From positions 1-46,210 of the forward strand of contig JALSPK010000063.1 in assembly GCA_026986005.1 (NCBI GenBank): 46,210 nt of DNA, in the 5' to 3' direction. The notes beneath the pieces were generated by a model. The model worked only from the letters and a program-made list of their open reading frames with translations. It did not search any database and was not told where the DNA came from. Below are positions 5,762-40,088 of this stretch, piece after piece. This DNA comes from Saprospiraceae bacterium. GTDB taxonomy: Bacteria; Bacteroidota; Bacteroidia; Chitinophagales; Saprospiraceae. The translations under genes were made by a program, and so were the position numbers. Within the stretch, counting starts at the first letter, position 1. Each line of letters opens with the position of its first letter.

Positions 5762-5780
5762 TCCTTGTGTTTTTTTACAA

Positions 5781-5808
5781 TAAAAAAGCCCTCAAAAATG
5801 AGGGCTTC
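5781..5808 (-). terminator. pheA attenuator hairpin
   Basis: Read on the minus strand, AAGCCCTCA (5799-5807) pairs perfectly with TGAGGGCTT (5786-5794) across a TTTT loop, and a T-tract follows. This is a classic intrinsic terminator, but it lies between the promoter and pheA, about 20 bases before the ATG. A competing partner, AGGGCT, lies at 5845-5850 inside the leader ORF and matches AGCCCT at 5801-5806. Confidence 0.85.
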
Positions 5809-5831
5809 GATATTGTATTATTTTAATTTAG

Positions 5832-5912
5832 TCATACCATATAGAGCCCTGTTTTATTCCAAAAACTGAAATAAAAAGAGAAATGATAACTACTAAAATA
5901 TTTATTATTCAT
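5832..5912 (-). CDS. pheL: Putative pheA leader peptide (26 aa; 5 Phe, 4 Tyr, 1 Trp)
   Basis: An ATG at 5912 opens a 26-codon frame ending in TGA at 5832. The peptide contains Phe at positions 6, 11, 13, 15 and 17, Tyr at 5, 9, 14 and 24, and Trp at 18; its core reads YFSSYHFSFYFSFW. Such density of aromatic residues directly upstream of pheA is what a ribosome-mediated attenuation leader requires. The stop codon lies 11 bases past the antiterminator strand (5845-5850). A ribosome that finishes the peptide would cover that strand and let the terminator form; a ribosome stalled at the Phe/Tyr cluster would leave it free. No Shine-Dalgarno is evident, as is usual in this phylum. The mechanism is inferred. 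Confidence 0.8.
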   Translation of the reverse strand: MNNKYFSSYHFSFYFSFWNKTGLYMV

Positions 5913-5936
5913 TGTTAATATTGATTAAATACGGTA

Positions 5937-5967
5937 CAAATATATACAAACAAAACGATATTGCAAA
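5937..5967 (-). promoter_or_regulatory. Bacteroidota-type promoter of the pheA operon
   Basis: On the minus strand TTTG (5964-5967), 19 bases, then TATATTTG (5937-5944) exactly fits the TTTG-N19-TAnnTTTG pattern of Bacteroidota primary sigma promoters. Transcription would start near 5930, about 18 bases before the leader ATG, giving a leader RNA of roughly 170 bases before pheA. Confidence 0.8.
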
Positions 5968-6038: not shown

Positions 6039-6076
6039 AGCAAACCATTATCAAGATGGTGAAATAGAAAAACTAT
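6039..6076. repeat. Short dispersed repeat with hairpin (copy 1)
   Basis: The core ccattatcaagatgg followed by tgaaatagaaaaa recurs at 14487-14520 as cctctatcaagaggg plus the same tgaaatagaaaaa tail. In both copies the first part can fold into a small hairpin although its bases differ. Here the repeat abuts the broken end of the AAA ATPase remnant. Confidence 0.5.
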
Positions 6077-6176
6077 TAGTTTTCCCTGATTGACGTGGCC
6101 CAGTAATTGCAAGTATTGGATATTCAAGAATAATTTGTCTTATTTTATACTCAATTTGCCTTTTTATAAACGTCAT
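6051..6176 (-). pseudogene. Truncated AAA ATPase (AAA_14/DUF4143-type) N-terminal remnant
   Basis: A 41-codon minus-strand frame starts with MTFIKRQIEYKIRQ, runs through YPILAITGPRQSGKT (a Walker A motif typical of AAA_14/DUF4143 ATP-binding proteins) and then stops within a few codons. Full-length relatives have several hundred residues. The frame leaves the family pattern directly after the Walker A threonine, where the sequence becomes the dispersed repeat at 6039-6076. The gene therefore seems to have been cut there by an insertion or deletion. No further ATPase fragments are seen in the window. Confidence 0.65.
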
Positions 6177-32535: not shown

Positions 32536-32589
32536 ATGAATATAAATACAAGATTTTGGTGGCTTCTAACTTATTCGATTTCCGGGTAG
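32536..32589 (+). CDS. trpL: trp operon leader peptide with tandem Trp codons
   Basis: ATG at 32536 opens a 17-codon frame ending in TAG at 32587: MNINTRFWWLLTYSISG. Two adjacent Trp codons (32557-32562) upstream of trpE are the hallmark of ribosome-mediated trp attenuation. The last sense codons contain CCGGG (32582-32586), which can pair with CCCGG (32630-32634) in the loop and descending arm of the terminator. A ribosome stalled at Trp leaves CCGGG free; a ribosome reaching the stop codon covers it. The pairing is 5 G/C base pairs, so the antiterminator is a candidate, not proven. Confidence 0.85.
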   Translation: MNINTRFWWLLTYSISG

Positions 32590-32610
32590 GATAGGCAACT
32601 GTTTTGTATA

Positions 32611-32647
32611 AAAAAAGCTTATTGGAACTCCCGGTAAGCTTTTTTTT
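32611..32647 (+). terminator. trp operon attenuator hairpin
   Basis: AAGCTTATTGG (32615-32625) pairs with CCGGTAAGCTT (32631-32641) around the loop AACTC, with flanking A and T runs extending the stem and a T-tract ending at 32647. It lies about 20 bases before the trpE ATG and after the leader peptide. Confidence 0.85.
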
Positions 32648-32667: not shown

Positions 32668-34062
32668 ATGGACATTATTGAGACAAAAAGAAAATTTAAA
32701 GTTGAGTATAAAAGATATTCGTCAGATACTATTACTCCTGTAAGTGTCTTCTTGAGATTGAGAGATGAGTTTTCGCAGACCTTATTGCTGGAAAGTTCTG
32801 ATTATAATAGCAATCGCAATAGCTACACATTTATTGTCGTGCAGCCACATTCGACTTTTGTGGTAAAAGAGAACAGGATTATTATTGACGGGGTGCCTCA
32901 GGTAGAAGACGTTGATGTAAAAAACTCATTGAAAAGATATATCGGTACTATTGATGTAGAGCAAGATAAAATCACTAAGCAATTTAATGGGCTGTATGGC
33001 TTTACCGGTTTTGAAGCCGTAAAATATTTTGATAATTTTGATTTTGTAGAAAATGAAAGTCCTGATAATATACCTGAGCTATACTATGGTTTTTACAAAT
33101 ATATTATTGCGATCAATCATTTTCAAGACGAATTGATTATTATGCAGAATGTTGAGGAGGGGCAAAAATCCAATTTAAAGTATATAGAAGACTTGGTTCT
33201 TTCACAAAGAATACCGGAGTATAAATTTGAGACATTGGGTGATGAGATATCAAAAATTGAAGATGATGAATTTTTGAAATTGGTAAATAGGGGAAAAGAT
33301 TATTGTCAGCAAGGAGAAGTATTCCAAATAGTATTTTCAAGAAGGTTTGTTCAAAAATTTCAAGGAGATGAATTCAATGTGTATAGAGCTTTGCGTTCGA
33401 TTAATCCATCGCCCTATTTGTTTTATTTTGATTATGGTGATTTCAAATTATTTGGTTCTTCACCGGAGAGTCAATTAGTAATAGCTAGATCTAAAGCCGT
33501 GCTGAATCCAATCGCAGGCACTTATAAAAAAACCGGAATTGAATTTGAAGATGAAGTATTGGCTGTAAAATTGAGTAAAGACCCTAAAGAAAATGCTGAG
33601 CATACTATGCTGGTAGATCTGGCTAGAAATGATTTGAGTCGTTATTGTACCGAAGTCAAAGTTGATAAATACAAGGAAATTCAGCACTTTAGTCATGTAT
33701 TGCATATCGTATCGGAGGTTAGTGGAAAGGTAGAGAAGGCCGAAGATTCTATTGATATATTTGCTTCTACTTTTCCAGCCGGCACATTGAGTGGTGCACC
33801 TAAGTACAGAGCTCTTGAGTTGATTAATAAAGATGAGCGATTTGATCGCACATTCTACGGCGGAACAATAGGCATTTTGAGTTTGTCTGGTGATATAAAC
33901 AGTGCTATTACCATAAGATCTTTTTTAAGCCAAAACGGATTGCTGCAATATCAAGCAGGGGCAGGTATTGTAGTAGATTCTAACCCTGAAACTGAATTAA
34001 AAGAAGTAGACAATAAACTTGGAGCATTAAGAAAAGCTATTGAAATAGCGAAAAAATATTGA
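32668..34062 (+). CDS. trpE: Anthranilate synthase component I
   Basis: The 464-residue product converts chorismate to anthranilate using ammonia from TrpG. The N-terminal domain contains LLLESSDYNSN, which includes the LLES-type tryptophan feedback motif. The chorismate-binding domain includes PYLFYFDYGDFKLFGSSPE, NPIAGTYKKTG, ENAEHTMLVDLARNDLSR and TFPAGTLSGAPKYRA. The ATG at 32668 is chosen; an in-frame TTG at 32650 directly abuts the attenuator's T-tract. It is the first structural gene of trpEGDCFBA-aroF, with trpG starting 1 base after its stop. Confidence 0.97.
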   Translation: MDIIETKRKFKVEYKRYSSDTITPVSVFLRLRDEFSQTLLLESSDYNSNRNSYTFIVVQPHSTFVVKENRIIIDGVPQVEDVDVKNSLKRYIGTIDVEQDKITKQFNGLYGFTGFEAVKYFDNFDFVENESPDNIPELYYGFYKYIIAINHFQDELIIMQNVEEGQKSNLKYIEDLVLSQRIPEYKFETLGDEISKIEDDEFLKLVNRGKDYCQQGEVFQIVFSRRFVQKFQGDEFNVYRALRSINPSPYLFYFDYGDFKLFGSSPESQLVIARSKAVLNPIAGTYKKTGIEFEDEVLAVKLSKDPKENAEHTMLVDLARNDLSRYCTEVKVDKYKEIQHFSHVLHIVSEVSGKVEKAEDSIDIFASTFPAGTLSGAPKYRALELINKDERFDRTFYGGTIGILSLSGDINSAITIRSFLSQNGLLQYQAGAGIVVDSNPETELKEVDNKLGALRKAIEIAKKY

Positions 34063-34063
34063 A

Positions 34064-34639
34064 ATGAAAAAGAAAATATTGATTTTGGACAACTATGATT
34101 CTTTTACGTATAATTTAGTACAGTATGTAGAGGAATTGACAGACATAGATGTAAATGTAAAAAGGAATGATGAGATTAGTATGGAAGAAGTAAGCCAATA
34201 TGATACGATAATACTTTCACCTGGTCCTGGACTACCGCAAGATGCCGGTATAATGATAGATTTGATAAGAGAATATGCTTCGAGTAAGAATATTTTGGGG
34301 GTTTGCCTTGGGCATCAAGCTATCGGCATGGCATTTGGTGCTGATCTCACCAATTTGGAGAGGGTATACCATGGAGTTAAAACTGAAATAAAAGTTTTGG
34401 ACGGAGCAGATCCTATATATAGAGGTATTACTACAAAACCGAAGGTTGGCAGATATCATTCTTGGGTAATTTCACCTGATTCATTGAATGAAGAGTTTGT
34501 GGTGACAGCTATATCCGAAGATAATAATATTATGTCTATAAAACACAAAGAATACAAACTCTGGGGAGTACAATATCATCCTGAGAGTATAATGACGGAA
34601 GAAGGAAAGAAAATAATTAAAAATTTTTTAGAAATATAA
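34064..34639 (+). CDS. trpG: Anthranilate synthase component II (glutamine amidotransferase)
   Basis: The 191-residue class I amidotransferase supplies ammonia to TrpE. It has the oxyanion segment SPGPGLPQDAG, the nucleophile Cys in GVCLGHQAIG and the His-Glu pair in YHPESIMT. It is a free-standing subunit, not fused to TrpD. It starts 1 base after trpE, which implies coupled translation, and trpD follows after 6 bases. Such subunits may also serve aminodeoxychorismate synthase; no pab genes are present here. Confidence 0.96.
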   Translation: MKKKILILDNYDSFTYNLVQYVEELTDIDVNVKRNDEISMEEVSQYDTIILSPGPGLPQDAGIMIDLIREYASSKNILGVCLGHQAIGMAFGADLTNLERVYHGVKTEIKVLDGADPIYRGITTKPKVGRYHSWVISPDSLNEEFVVTAISEDNNIMSIKHKEYKLWGVQYHPESIMTEEGKKIIKNFLEI

Positions 34640-34645
34640 TAATCA

Positions 34646-35653
34646 ATGATGAAAGAGATATTAGAAGGTTTGTTCAACCATATTAAGCTGTCAAGAGAAG
34701 AAGCAAAAGATATATTGATTAGGATATCTTCGCGAGAATTTTCCGATGCTCAGGTTGTTGCATTTATGACGGTATTTCAGATGAGGCCTATTGCAGTAGA
34801 AGAACTGACCGGATTTAGGGAAGCATTGTTGGAATTGTGCATAGCTGTAGATTTTTCGGAGTTTGATACAATTGATATGTGTGGTACTGGCGGTGATGGC
34901 AAAAATACATTTAATATATCAACATTATCGTCTTTTATCGTAGCCGGAGCTGGATATAAGGTGGCAAAACACGGTAATTATGGAGTGTCATCGGTTAGTG
35001 GTTCTTCTAATGTACTGGAGGCAATGGGATATGAGTTCACAAATAATGAAAAAGTGTTGAAAGATCAATTGAGAGATGCTAATATTACATTTTTGCACGC
35101 TCCGAAATTTCATCCCGCTATGGCAGCTGTTGGTCCTGTTAGAAAGCAATTGGGAATGAAGACATTCTTCAATATGCTTGGACCGATTGTCAATCCTTCC
35201 AGACCTCAAAATCAATTAGCCGGTGTTTTTAACAGAGAGTTGGGTCGGCTGTATCAATATTTATTTCAAAAGGAAGCAGGAAAGAAATATGCGGTTATAT
35301 ACGGTCTTGATGGATACGATGAAATATCTTTGACCGGAAAATTTATGATGAGAGACAACAAAGGCGAACATATTTTGTCCCCAAAAGATTTAGGATTGAA
35401 AAAGATAAATGAAGACAAAATTTACGGGGGAAATAATGTTGAAGAAGCAGCCGATATTTTCAAAAAAATCCTTAACGGTAAAGGAACAGAGGATCAAAAC
35501 AATGTGGTTTGTGCTAACGCAGCGATGGCAATGAAGGTGATGAGTGATATAGATTATGGAACTTGTTTTGAATTGGCAAAAGATTCGTTATTAGGTGGAA
35601 AAGCTTTTAAAAGCTTGAAATTAATCACCTGTTTTCGTGCAGACACGAAGTAA
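34646..35653 (+). CDS. trpD: Anthranilate phosphoribosyltransferase
   Basis: The 335-residue product transfers ribose 5-phosphate from PRPP to anthranilate. The PRPP-binding motif is MCGTGGDGKNTFNIST, followed by VAKHGNYGVSSVSGSSNVLEAMG and FLHAPKFHPAM, and MLGPIVNPSRPQNQLAGV later. Two ATG codons stand together (34646 and 34649); either could start translation. It lies 6 bases after trpG and 21 bases before trpC. Confidence 0.96.
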   Translation: MMKEILEGLFNHIKLSREEAKDILIRISSREFSDAQVVAFMTVFQMRPIAVEELTGFREALLELCIAVDFSEFDTIDMCGTGGDGKNTFNISTLSSFIVAGAGYKVAKHGNYGVSSVSGSSNVLEAMGYEFTNNEKVLKDQLRDANITFLHAPKFHPAMAAVGPVRKQLGMKTFFNMLGPIVNPSRPQNQLAGVFNRELGRLYQYLFQKEAGKKYAVIYGLDGYDEISLTGKFMMRDNKGEHILSPKDLGLKKINEDKIYGGNNVEEAADIFKKILNGKGTEDQNNVVCANAAMAMKVMSDIDYGTCFELAKDSLLGGKAFKSLKLITCFRADTK

Positions 35654-35674
35654 TAAATTAAAAAATAAAGCAAA

Positions 35675-36454
35675 ATGAATATATTAAGAAAGATAATTGA
35701 TTTCAAAAAACCTTTAGTTCAAGAGCTAAAAGAGACAATTCCAATTAAGTTTTTGGAGAAAAGTATATATTTCAATACACCGGTGGTGTCGATGAAAGAG
35801 TATCTCAATCGAGAAAATGCATCTGGAATAATAGCAGAATTTAAAAGAAAATCACCGTCAAAAGGAGATATAAATAAATACGCCAAGGTTGATGAGGTAA
35901 CATTGGGTTATATGCAAGCGGGAGCTAGTGCTTTATCAGTATTGACTGACGAGCATTTTTTTGGAGGTAAAAATAGTGATCTTACTGTTGCTAGAAAATA
36001 CAATTTTTGCCCCATATTAAGGAAAGATTTTATTTTTGACGAGTATCAGATTTTTGAAGCTAAAAGTATTGGTGCAGATGTCATCCTTCTGATAGCTGAA
36101 GTATTATCAAAAGAGGAGGTGAAGAAGTTATCTTCAATTGCTAAGACTCTAGGATTGGAAGTTCTATTGGAGTTGCATAGTATTGATCAAATAGAAAAAA
36201 TAAATAAAAATATTGATATCATTGGGGTGAATAATAGAAACTTAAAGACATTTGAAGTTTCAATCGAAAATTCTATTTCAATAGCAAAATCGCTCCTGCA
36301 GGATATAGTGAAAATATCAGAAAGTGGGATTAAAAGTGCTGATGAAATTTTAACATTAAAAGAATATGGCTACAGAGGATTTTTGATTGGAGAAAGATTT
36401 ATGAATGCTCCAAGGCCACAAGAAGCATGCAAAACACTGGTAAGTAGTATCTGA
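35675..36454 (+). CDS. trpC: Indole-3-glycerol phosphate synthase
   Basis: The 259-residue TIM-barrel enzyme closes the indole ring. Key segments are IIAEFKRKSPSKGDI (catalytic Lys), ALSVLTDEHFFGG, ILRKDFIFDEYQI, LLELHS, GVNNRNLKTFEV and SESGIKSADEI. It is separate from TrpF, unlike the fused enterobacterial protein. There are 46 bases before trpF, the widest gap in the operon, with no sign of a new promoter. Confidence 0.96.
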   Translation: MNILRKIIDFKKPLVQELKETIPIKFLEKSIYFNTPVVSMKEYLNRENASGIIAEFKRKSPSKGDINKYAKVDEVTLGYMQAGASALSVLTDEHFFGGKNSDLTVARKYNFCPILRKDFIFDEYQIFEAKSIGADVILLIAEVLSKEEVKKLSSIAKTLGLEVLLELHSIDQIEKINKNIDIIGVNNRNLKTFEVSIENSISIAKSLLQDIVKISESGIKSADEILTLKEYGYRGFLIGERFMNAPRPQEACKTLVSSI

Positions 36455-36500
36455 AAAAACAACTTATATTTAAAATCAATTTTTGTTAAATAAAATAGAA

Positions 36501-37112
36501 ATGAAAATAAAGGTTTGCGGCATGAAATACGAGAACAATATCCGTGATTTGAATAAATTGGATATTGATTTTATAGGATTTATTTTTTATGACAAATCAG
36601 TTAGATATATAGGTGATAATCCCGTGAAATCAGATTATAGAGATATTAAAAAAGTTGGTGTTTTTGTAAATAGTAGTGAAGAGTTAATTGCTAATAAAAT
36701 CAATGAATTTGGTCTTGATTTTATACAGTTGCATGGCGAAGAGACTCAAGAGTTTTGCTTGGAAACAAAAAAGTATGACGTTAAAATTATCAAGGCATTT
36801 AGGATTGACGATAATTTTGATTTTAATAAATGTAAGCGATATATAGATGTTGTAGATTTATTTTTATTTGATGCCAAAGGCGAACAGCCCGGGGGAAATG
36901 GTGTTTCCTTCAATTGGGCAAAGCTAGCGGAGTATCACTTAGAAATTCCTTTTTTATTGAGTGGTGGTATAGCTATAAAACATAGTGCTAAATTGAAAAA
37001 CTATTATCATCCACAGTTTTTGGGAATAGATGTAAATAGTGGATTTGAGATAAGTCCGGGGATTAAAAATATAGAATTATTAAAAAGATTTATAAATGAA
37101 ATACGAAGTTAA
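36501..37112 (+). CDS. trpF: Phosphoribosylanthranilate isomerase
   Basis: The 203-residue TIM-barrel enzyme performs the Amadori rearrangement. [14 protein letters not shown] carries the catalytic Cys in [32 protein letters not shown] (catalytic Asp) and PFLLSGGI complete the signature. The ATG at 36501 is preferred to an in-frame TTG at 36483 because the first beta strand then begins at once. Its 3' end overlaps trpB by 17 bases, suggesting coupled translation. Confidence 0.95.
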
Positions 37113-38283
37113 CAGATTGGGATTTTACGGTAAATATGGAGGGGCTTTTATCCCTGAGCTACTTCACTTTAATATAGAAGAATTGGAGGAAAAATACAAG
37201 GAGATAATTGCTGAAAAGTCATTTCAAAAAGAGTTTCAAGCCTTGTTGAAGGATTATGTGGGGCGACCATCACCATTGTATTACGCCAAAAGGTTATCGG
37301 AAAAATATAATACTAAGATATATCTTAAGAGGGAGGATCTTAATCACACGGGAGCTCATAAAGTAAACAATACTATAGGTCAGATATTATTGGCAAAAAG
37401 ATTAGGTAAAACCAGGATAATAGCAGAGACCGGAGCGGGCCAGCATGGAGTAGCGACTGCGACGGTATGCGCTTTGATGAATTTGAAATGCATCGTTTAT
37501 ATGGGCGAAATTGATATCAAAAGACAAGCCCCTAATGTTGCTAGGATGAAAATGCTAGGCGCCGAAGTGAGACCTGCTAAGTCTGGAAGCAAGACTCTAA
37601 AAGATGCTACCAATGAAGCTATACGCGATTGGATTAATAATCCTGAAGATACCTATTATCTTATCGGTTCGGTAGTAGGGCCACATCCATATCCGGATAT
37701 GGTAGCTTTGTTTCAATCCGTAATAAGCAAAGAGATAATGGATCAAATGATGGACAAAGAGGGTAGGACATATCCTGATAGAATAATTGCCTGTATTGGT
37801 GGGGGTAGCAATGCTGCCGGGGCATATTACCACTATCTTGATGATAATAGGGTCGAATTGGTGTCAGTAGAAGCTGCTGGATTGGGATTAAAGTCGGGAG
37901 AATCTGCTGCTACTAGTGTATTGGGTAGTGATGGAGTGATACATGGAAGTATGACTCTATTGATGCAAGATAAAGATGGGCAAATCATAGAGCCTTATTC
38001 GATATCTGCAGGATTGGATTATCCCGGTATCGGACCATTGCATGCACATTTGATTGAGACAGGTCGTTCGATTGTGCTAAGCGCGACCGATAAAGAAGCA
38101 TTGAGTGCAGGTCTACTATTGACAAGGTTGGAGGGGATTATTCCTGCATTGGAGTCTGCTCATGCATTAGCGGCATTGGATAAAATTGATTTTAAACCAA
38201 ATGAGATAACAGTTGTGAATCTTTCGGGGAGAGGGGACAAAGATTTGGAAACATACATTCGAGAATTGAAAATAACAGAATAA
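37096..38283 (+). CDS. trpB: Tryptophan synthase beta subunit
   Basis: The 395-residue PLP enzyme condenses indole and serine. The PLP lysine is in [13 protein letters not shown], the catalytic Glu region in [14 protein letters not shown], and the phosphate-binding loop in [13 protein letters not shown]. Length and motifs are those of the TrpB1 type that works with TrpA, which follows 6 bases downstream. The start ATG lies within trpF. Confidence 0.97.
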
Positions 38284-38289
38284 ACAGTT

Positions 38290-39072
38290 ATGGGTAAGCA
38301 AAGAATAAACAATATTTTTAAATCAGGTGATAACGATATCCTCAGTATTTATGTGACAACCGGGTATCCTGAATTGGAATCAATGCCGGTATTGGTAGAA
38401 GAACTGGCAGAACTCGGGGTTGGATTTATAGAAGTGGGAATGCCTTATTCCGATCCATTGGCAGATGGTCAAACGATCCAATACAGTAGCAGTATTGCAC
38501 TCAAAAACGGTATTGATTTGGATAAATATTTTGCTCAAGTGCATCAAGTAAGATCAAAAGTTGATATTCCTCTTATATTTATGGGCTATTTCAATCAGGT
38601 ATTAAGATTGGGGGTAGAAAATTTTCTGCAAAAATGTCTGAATAGCGGTATTGATGGGCTTATTTTACCGGATTTGCCTCCGGAAATATATAAAGAGAAT
38701 TACAAGGCAATTTTTGACAAATACGATTTGTCACTTTCATTTTTGATTACTCCGACTACTTCCGATAAAAGAATAAAATTGTTTGATGAATTAAGCTCAG
38801 GCTTTATATATGTAATTTCCGGTTCGGCGACTACTGGAAAAACAAATAATTTTACAAATAGCCAGCTGGAGTATTTCAAAAGAATAAACAGATTAAAATT
38901 AAATAACCCTAAAGTTATTGGATTTGGAGTTTCTAACAGAGAAAAGTACTTAATTGCAAATAAATATAGTGATGGAGCGATTATAGGTTCTGCTTACATC
39001 AAAGCATTAAAAAATTCTAAAGATTATATAAAGACTACAAGGCAATTTGTAGATAAAATTTTAAAGTCATGA
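38290..39072 (+). CDS. trpA: Tryptophan synthase alpha subunit
   Basis: The 260-residue TIM-barrel enzyme releases indole from indole-3-glycerol phosphate. It contains GFIEVGMPYSDPLADGQTIQ, which includes the catalytic Glu and the Asp of PxxDPxADG, then GLILPDLPPE, and GFIYVISGSATTG where phosphate binds. It overlaps the DAHP synthase gene by 4 bases (ATGA). Confidence 0.96.
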   Translation: MGKQRINNIFKSGDNDILSIYVTTGYPELESMPVLVEELAELGVGFIEVGMPYSDPLADGQTIQYSSSIALKNGIDLDKYFAQVHQVRSKVDIPLIFMGYFNQVLRLGVENFLQKCLNSGIDGLILPDLPPEIYKENYKAIFDKYDLSLSFLITPTTSDKRIKLFDELSSGFIYVISGSATTGKTNNFTNSQLEYFKRINRLKLNNPKVIGFGVSNREKYLIANKYSDGAIIGSAYIKALKNSKDYIKTTRQFVDKILKS

Positions 39073-40088
39073 TAATAAAACTAAAAAAAAATATAGATGA
39101 AGTATTGAAAAATAATATTATCGAAAAACTTGATAATATTGGATACAAATCAAATGATGTAACCACTCAATATGCGGATTATATTATAGGTGTTGGTAGC
39201 AAAGAATTTGATATACGAGAGGTAGGTGTACTGAATGGTGTGGAGGATATACACAGAGTTACTAGTTCGGCAAAATTGGTTTCCCGTAAGTGGAAGACTA
39301 AAGAGACAATTATTGACTTGGGAGATGATATAAAGATTGGGGGAGGTCATTTTCAGATAATGGCAGGACCGTGTTCAATAGAGTCCGAGAAGCAAATTGA
39401 AACTACTGTTCGGCATCTTTTGGATAACAATATCAAAATAATGAGAGGAGGTGTATACAAACCTAGGAGTTCACCATATGCTTTTAGAGGGCTTGGTATA
39501 GATGGGTTAAAATTATTTTATAAGTATTGCAATGCAAATGGCATAAAAATAATCACGGAGGTGATGATGACAGATCAAATAGAGGATATGTATGAATATG
39601 TTGATATCTTCCAAGTTGGAGCACGGAATTCTCAAAATTTTAATTTACTGGATGCCTTGGGCAAAGTAAATAAGCCTGTAATGCTAAAAAGAGCATTGTC
39701 AGGAACGATTGATGAGTTGTTGGCTAGTGCTGAATATATTTTTTCCAACGGTAATGAAGATATAATGCTTTGCGAGAGAGGGATAAGAACATATGAAAAA
39801 GCTTACAGAAATACATTTGATATCAATAGTGTTCCCTTGTTGAAGAAAAAATCGCATTTACCCGTCGTTATTGATGCTTCACATGGAGTTGGCATTAGAG
39901 AGTTTGTAGAGCCTGTATCTTTAGCCGGTATTATTGCGGGTGGAGATGCTGTGATCACAGAAGTGCATGAAATACCACAGATAGCATTTTCTGATGGAGC
40001 TCAAACATTGAGTCATAAAGAAGCTGAGATATACTACGAAAATGTGAGAAAAACAGTAAGATTCAGAAAAGATTTGAAGAGGTTCTGA
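39069..40088 (+). CDS. aroF: 3-deoxy-7-phosphoheptulonate (DAHP) synthase, type I-beta with N-terminal ferredoxin-like domain
   Basis: The 339-residue product makes DAHP from PEP and erythrose 4-phosphate, the entry step of the shikimate pathway. Residues 1-70 form a ferredoxin-like regulatory domain as in thermophilic and Bacillus-type I-beta enzymes. The barrel contains MAGPCSIESEKQI, RGGVYKPRSSPYAFRGLG, QVGARNSQNF, MLKRALSGTIDE and VVIDASHGVG. It is the last gene of the trp operon, translationally coupled to trpA. Placing the first enzyme of the common pathway under trp attenuation is notable. The N-terminal domain would allow feedback by Tyr or Phe in relatives. Confidence 0.93.
   Translation: MIIKLKKNIDEVLKNNIIEKLDNIGYKSNDVTTQYADYIIGVGSKEFDIREVGVLNGVEDIHRVTSSAKLVSRKWKTKETIIDLGDDIKIGGGHFQIMAGPCSIESEKQIETTVRHLLDNNIKIMRGGVYKPRSSPYAFRGLGIDGLKLFYKYCNANGIKIITEVMMTDQIEDMYEYVDIFQVGARNSQNFNLLDALGKVNKPVMLKRALSGTIDELLASAEYIFSNGNEDIMLCERGIRTYEKAYRNTFDINSVPLLKKKSHLPVVIDASHGVGIREFVEPVSLAGIIAGGDAVITEVHEIPQIAFSDGAQTLSHKEAEIYYENVRKTVRFRKDLKRF

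Follow-up and report, generated by a model that had tools for sequence, protein, structure and literature searches.

Leader-peptide attenuation of pheA is a textbook mechanism in enterobacteria, in which pheL provides a Phe-rich leader ORF, a terminator precedes pheA and an antiterminator makes use of the 5' arm of that terminator. Classical attenuators are assumed to work by order of events. Within Bacteroidetes, the Bacteroid-trp motif is a Trp leader attenuator. The accessible part of a 2010 survey (PMC2965389) gives leader-peptide attenuation as known only in Proteobacteria and Actinobacteria, in addition to the survey's own case in Firmicutes, and Bacteroid-trp (RF01692) was reported as a likely cis-regulatory motif of Bacteroidetes (PMC2864571). 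In 2021, a transcriptome of Flavobacterium psychrophilum (PMC9723704) found strong hints of attenuation by leader peptides ahead of amino-acid operons, named the TAnnTTTG promoter consensus, and placed a structured 5' element with no Rfam match before pheA in this species and other Flavobacteriaceae; the accessible portion of that paper gives neither the codon content of the element nor its alternative stems, spacing or range beyond the family. Short ORFs reminiscent of leader peptides were described in Bacteroides thetaiotaomicron, pheA not being named in the portion of the paper available (PMC7366714), and mRNAs of Bacteroidota are without Shine-Dalgarno sequences (PMC6847099). In the open literature, as far as its accessible portions go, no description of a Phe/Tyr leader in Bacteroidota was found beyond PMC9723704. 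Given pheL, Bacteroid-trp and the F. psychrophilum precedents, the attenuation type itself is thus already known, also in Bacteroidota.

The window, i.e. the whole stretch of 46,210 nt of DNA that was analysed, carries a promoter, a Phe/Tyr leader ORF and a terminator from 5967 to 5781 on the minus strand, followed by pheA. All of the parts that the earlier note had described were found, and the coordinates bear out its promoter (TTTG, N19 and TATATTTG), its 26-codon ORF with 5 Phe, 4 Tyr and 1 Trp codons, and its terminator, the T-tract of which ends ~20 nt before pheA. The features of this region are as follows.

5967-5937, minus strand: promoter of the TAnnTTTG type, with TTTG (5967-5964), N19 and TATATTTG (5944-5937)
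5912-5832, minus strand: leader ORF, unannotated, 26 codons, MNNKYFSSYHFSFYFSFWNKTGLYMV, then stop
5880-5847, minus strand: possible 1:2 hairpin of the pause or protector type, in which 5880-5867, over Phe/Tyr codons, would pair with 5861-5847
5850-5845, minus strand: strand 2 (5' strand of the antiterminator), AGGGCT, ~13 nt past the first base of codon Phe17
5808-5799, minus strand: strand 3 (5' arm of the terminator, with strand 2 as alternative partner), from folding and pairing
5794-5785, minus strand: strand 4 (3' arm of the terminator), followed by a T-tract to 5781
5761-4907, minus strand: pheA, prephenate dehydratase (PF00800, E 1.5e-52)
4905-3748, minus strand: second gene, aminotransferase class I/II (PF00155, E 4.2e-58)

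The terminator stem (5808-5785) consists of nine Watson-Crick pairs and one outer G-U pair around a 4-nt loop, and T's follow it. The AGGGCT/AGCCCT pairing seen earlier was confirmed, strand 2 (5850-5845) being complementary to 5806-5801 in the 5' arm of the terminator. Phe and Tyr make up 9 of the 26 leader codons. As judged by comparison with shuffled sequences, the leader region folds more stably than 200 of 200 shuffles (z -5.5), and the 1:2 hairpin reaches -9.0 kcal/mol (z -2.7). Strand 2 lies inside the leader ORF in the window and over the stop codon in several Saprospiraceae. An intrinsic terminator stands between the leader ORF and the first structural gene in the window and in relatives, and an antiterminator using its 5' arm was obtained in silico, forming only before strand 4 exists.

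The window shares with enterobacterial pheL/pheA a Phe-rich leader, a terminator and an antiterminator on the 5' arm of the terminator, but differs in its many Tyr codons, its TAnnTTTG promoter, a PheA in which Pfam reported no chorismate-mutase domain, and an operon that includes an aminotransferase gene and, in relatives, often also tyrA and DAHP synthase. The earlier view that the sequence is unrelated to enterobacterial pheL agrees with the score of the Phe_leader family (RF01859), which aligned end to end with 5780-5896, though weakly (28.0 bits, E 0.0077), and did not reach its gathering threshold of 55. No Rfam family matched the whole window at threshold, and T-box and metabolite riboswitch families were thus unmatched. 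The F. psychrophilum pheA element is probably the same system as that of the window.

A gene for an Rrf2-type regulator lies next after the aminotransferase gene on the same strand. Downstream of the aminotransferase gene, tyrA was found in the congener G003 and was not found there in the window or in congeners G001 and G002; in the window's genome, tyrA is on another contig. The loci in question are L033, downstream of pheA, and 2309-3175 of L195. The tyrA stretch (contig C220) showed only one ORF with 5 Phe/Tyr codons and a weak hairpin, ~1.1 kb before tyrA and with another ORF between, and no Phe/Tyr leader was seen around the PF00793 genes that lie beyond the window (C194 and C175). TyrR was considered as an alternative regulator, and one match to PF18024 above the cut-off, inside a 425-aa frame, makes it a possible one in the genome of the window. 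At 6051-6176 on the minus strand of the window, a 41-codon ORF with ITGPRQSGKT looks like a truncated gene start; Pfam gave no match, and its family is presumably that of AAA-type ATPases.

Relatives were fetched with PheA, and 98 of the 110 loci obtained were retained (window counted) after nine with identical upstream DNA and three with short upstream DNA were left out. The 450 nt upstream of pheA were searched with a strict detector that requires an ORF of 10-60 codons, at least 6 Phe/Tyr within 12 codons, and a terminator at most 60 nt away. A module was identified in 94 of the 98 distinct loci (single in 67, two in 27), though these counts are not independent because the loci are related. 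Shuffled regions gave 0, 0, 0, 1 and 0 of 98 in five rounds, and among 417 other ORFs with a length of 200 aa or more, only one was preceded by a module. The strict detector missed L018, L026, L040 and L044, and at a looser setting a leader with 5 Phe/Tyr codons was found in L026. Of the 94 module loci, 79 have a TAnnTTTG box no more than 60 nt ahead of the first leader, as compared with one that has it in a control stretch located 300 nt farther upstream.

The nearest named relatives of the window are metagenome genomes labelled Saprospiraceae, with a PheA identity of 79%. In three congeners the leader pattern YF..Y.FSFYF.(F/Y)WNK is kept, changes of the N, C or H type occurring at variable places only, and in leaders from outside the genus it is the Phe/Tyr codons and the spacing, not the sequence, that are common. 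The alignment of relatives that the earlier note had proposed as a check thus showed that the leader ORF has largely been kept, together with its Phe/Tyr codons and the two alternative stems. Among 17 lower-scoring PheA relatives, the module was detected in nine. The eight misses include L182, in which a leader is present by eye, and L188, which has just 111 nt upstream and retains part of a Phe/Tyr-rich stretch and the terminator; in L184 and L189-L193, no leader was visible by eye.

A sample of the window's class, drawn from a phylum-wide sample, comprised 41 genomes with a listed pheA match (L024 among them); two f24 genomes and one f30 genome, whose matches had no listed places, were left out. 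The strict detector passed 35 of the 41. Leaders were present by eye in L124, L131 and L157, and in L133, L135 and L148, which belong to one family, no leader was visible and pheA directly follows another ORF, which we take to be aroA. From well over a hundred genomes of other classes with a match, 22 were chosen by hand. The module was absent by the detector in 18 of these and present in four (L115, L117, L136 and L141), in which the start of PheA is Bacteroidia-like by eye. The presence of both together in these four genomes suggests joint inheritance or joint transfer of leader and operon, and possibly both were transferred together into these four.

The same window contains a trp operon with a leader of its own, the features of which are given below.

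32536-32589, plus strand: Trp-Trp leader ORF MNINTRFWWLLTYSISG, before trpE
32610-32646, plus strand: terminator of the trp leader, before trpE
32668-40088, plus strand: trp operon, from trpE (32668) to its last gene, DAHP synthase (39069-40088)

At 30 trpE loci (window counted), a Trp-Trp leader with a terminator was found in 23, the terminator of L212 being doubtful, and 28 had the ORF at least. None of the 30 carried a Phe/Tyr module before trpE, and none of the 98 pheA loci carried a Trp-Trp leader with a terminator before pheA. Short ORFs enriched in codons for the product of the operon are found before both, and the Phe/Tyr leaders of pheA dissociate from the Trp-Trp leaders of trpE. This change of codons with operon product is the strongest argument for reading of the signal by a ribosome. 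Bacteroid-trp is likewise a cis-regulatory RNA of the phylum to which the window belongs, but RF01692 (gathering threshold 49) had no match in the window, its trp leader included, or in its own genome.

To locate the antiterminator strand in 121 modules, the sequence following the last Phe/Tyr codon was scanned for the segment that gives the best duplex with the 5' arm of the terminator. Strand 2 starts on average 13.1 nt past the first base of that codon (interquartile range 10-14 nt, n=121), as compared with a median of 24 (interquartile range 12-34) in shuffled stretches, and its start relative to the stop codon has an interquartile range of -16 to +2 (n=121). The footprint of a bacterial ribosome extends ~12-15 nt downstream of the working codon. 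With this value, the spacing would put strand 2 immediately beyond a ribosome that has stalled on the last control codon and beneath one that has gone past it, irrespective of whether strand 2 falls inside the ORF or over the stop codon.

In 113 of 121 modules, strand 2 pairs with strand 3 of the same module better than do at least 95% of 50 shuffled versions, and an unbroken run of at least 6 pairs was present in 106 of 119, with 85 distinct strand 2 sequences and 93 distinct arm sequences. Within the genus, one column changes jointly in strands 2, 3 and 4, being G/C/G in the window and A/T/A in G001 and G002; in G003 it is G/T/A, i.e. a G-U pair in 2:3. When arms were exchanged among all loci, the own arm stood out poorly, with 43 of 121 modules reaching 5% or less, because GGGAC/GTCCC-like cores recur; with dissimilar arms only, the own arm beats at least 95% in 78 of 119. 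The 1:2 hairpin is less general, 5% or fewer of the shuffles being equally stable in only 64 of 119 modules.

The RNA left free by the ribosome was folded at several ribosome positions. At the stalled positions tried, the antiterminator formed while only strand 3 was out and the terminator once strand 4 was out, and with the ribosome at the stop codon folding permits the terminator only. The fold without a ribosome resembles the stalled case, with the antiterminator forming before strand 4, which counts against the model and leaves the untranslated state unexplained. Switching between two states at equilibrium was rejected, because at equilibrium the terminator prevailed for all of the ribosome positions that were tried. 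Hence, the switch must be kinetic, by order of events.

What can be read from the sequence is which parts the element has, how they are conserved, which pairings are possible, how they are spaced and how the codons match the product. Together, these findings make a ribosome-mediated attenuator of transcription, responsive to Phe and, probably, to Tyr, the likely identity of the element. For its operation we infer leader translation, stalling, termination, read-through and a response to Tyr in the following order. RNA polymerase would start slightly downstream of 5937, and the leader would be translated while it emerges. When Phe- and Tyr-tRNA are charged, the ribosome would clear the Phe/Tyr codons and cover strand 2 (5850-5845); with strand 2 covered, strands 3 and 4 would form the terminator and transcription would end before pheA. 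When these tRNAs are uncharged, the ribosome would stall within the codon cluster, and its leading edge would halt just short of strand 2. The free strand 2 would pair with strand 3 before strand 4 is made, and transcription would continue through pheA and the aminotransferase gene.

Codon content makes it plausible that both amino acids are sensed, as the 121 codon clusters contain 605 Phe and 385 Tyr codons. The aminotransferase, from which the earlier note had argued for dual sensing, is an incomplete argument alone; in relatives the commonest order is pheA, aminotransferase, tyrA and DAHP synthase, seen at 40 of the 57 loci for which 4.5 kb or more of downstream DNA was available. In a first set of loci, 45 leaders for which tyrA was found had means of 5.3 Phe and 4.2 Tyr codons, and nine for which it was not found had 8.4 and 0.9. 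In a second set, the mean Tyr content was 3.4 in 33 leaders with tyrA and 4.1 in seven without a tyrA match, all of which have a DAHP synthase match. The idea that Tyr codons track the presence of tyrA in the operon thus held well for the first set and failed for the second, and the seven loci indicate that Tyr does not follow tyrA as such. The leader Tyr content may follow any gene common to both branches. The six leaders of Marinifilum/Labilibaculum (L074, L079, L083, L089, L093 and L094), which represent one clade, have 7-10 Phe and 0-1 Tyr codons, and at these loci no aminotransferase, tyrA or DAHP synthase match was found within ~4.7 kb of pheA.

As this pattern of Tyr against operon content is suggestive only, some weight has to be left for the same attenuator sensing Phe alone, with Tyr codons that are neutral and stem from similarly T-rich triplets. 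The excess of Phe over Tyr codons, the nearly Tyr-less leaders of the six pheA-alone loci and the fact that the enterobacterial pheA leader is a Phe leader would all suit it. We nevertheless consider it unlikely, given that Tyr accounts for 39% of the Phe and Tyr codons over the 121 clusters and is nearly absent only in the one clade where no match to the three other genes follows pheA. Control of the terminator by a ligand-binding RNA, an RNA-binding protein or a T-box, with the ORF incidental, is far less probable still. A terminator with a structured 5' leader would suit a riboswitch too, and the F. psychrophilum pheA element was left unnamed in the accessible part of its paper (PMC9723704), but the window has no Rfam family at threshold, what the leaders have in common beyond the genus is Phe/Tyr codons and spacing and not sequence, and the codons become Trp-Trp before trpE. 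Chance, i.e. an incidental ORF in an A+T-rich intergenic stretch ahead of the terminator of an upstream unit, has next to no probability. TTT and TAT are frequent triplets in such DNA, but the shuffles gave 0-1 of 98 and other ORFs 1 of 417, so that recurrence in relatives exceeds both, and TAnnTTTG precedes the leader in most module loci.

The attenuator of the window is a single one, and some of its relatives carry two. The second module of L020 overlaps the first terminator and was considered spurious, and 26 of the 27 loci scored with two modules are thus tandem (L012, L013, L030, L051, L053 and L072 among them). The strict detector scored two modules in 17 of the 20 loci titled Chitinophaga; of the others, L056 and L066 have a second unit by eye and L095 has one unit. 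Tandems were also found by the strict detector in part of the Saprospiraceae, and in Marinifilum at a looser setting. TAnnTTTG precedes the first leader in 27 of 27 two-module loci and was found between the first terminator and the second leader in 0 of 27, and the two units therefore most likely act in series on one transcript. Over the 27 loci, first leaders contain on average 4.9 Phe, 3.0 Tyr and 0.6 Trp codons, and second leaders 5.1, 4.0 and 0, respectively. A series arrangement should multiply the read-through probabilities and so sharpen the response. Salmonella mgtCBR likewise carries a pair of leader-ORF attenuators in a single 5' leader, an arrangement that it shares with relatives of the window but not with the window itself. 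According to the available part of PMC3641672, the mgtCBR pair responds to different signals, ATP and proline, whereas the two leaders of the tandem relatives are alike in being Phe/Tyr-rich, each with a terminator of its own.

Less expected than the attenuation type are the arrangement in series for one signal, the range over the class, and the near Tyr-less leaders in the pheA-alone clade. Taken together, the data incline us, by a small degree, to the view that much of Bacteroidia uses one conserved dual-amino-acid attenuator on the Phe/Tyr branch, which would have been inherited with the PheA type and the operon. Several lineages would have two in series behind one promoter for a steeper response with lower leak, and the codons would adapt to operon content, Tyr being nearly absent where pheA stands alone. 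The comparison yields missing gene models, namely the leader ORFs, and candidate sensors of Phe/Tyr limitation in Bacteroidota, and the natural variants (single or tandem, Phe-only or Phe and Tyr) make attenuator tuning directly testable. For the bacterium, this simple aromatic amino-acid switch, backed by a wide comparison in a phylum without Shine-Dalgarno sequences, would most likely allow the enzymes of Phe, and probably Tyr, biosynthesis to be made only when these amino acids are short.
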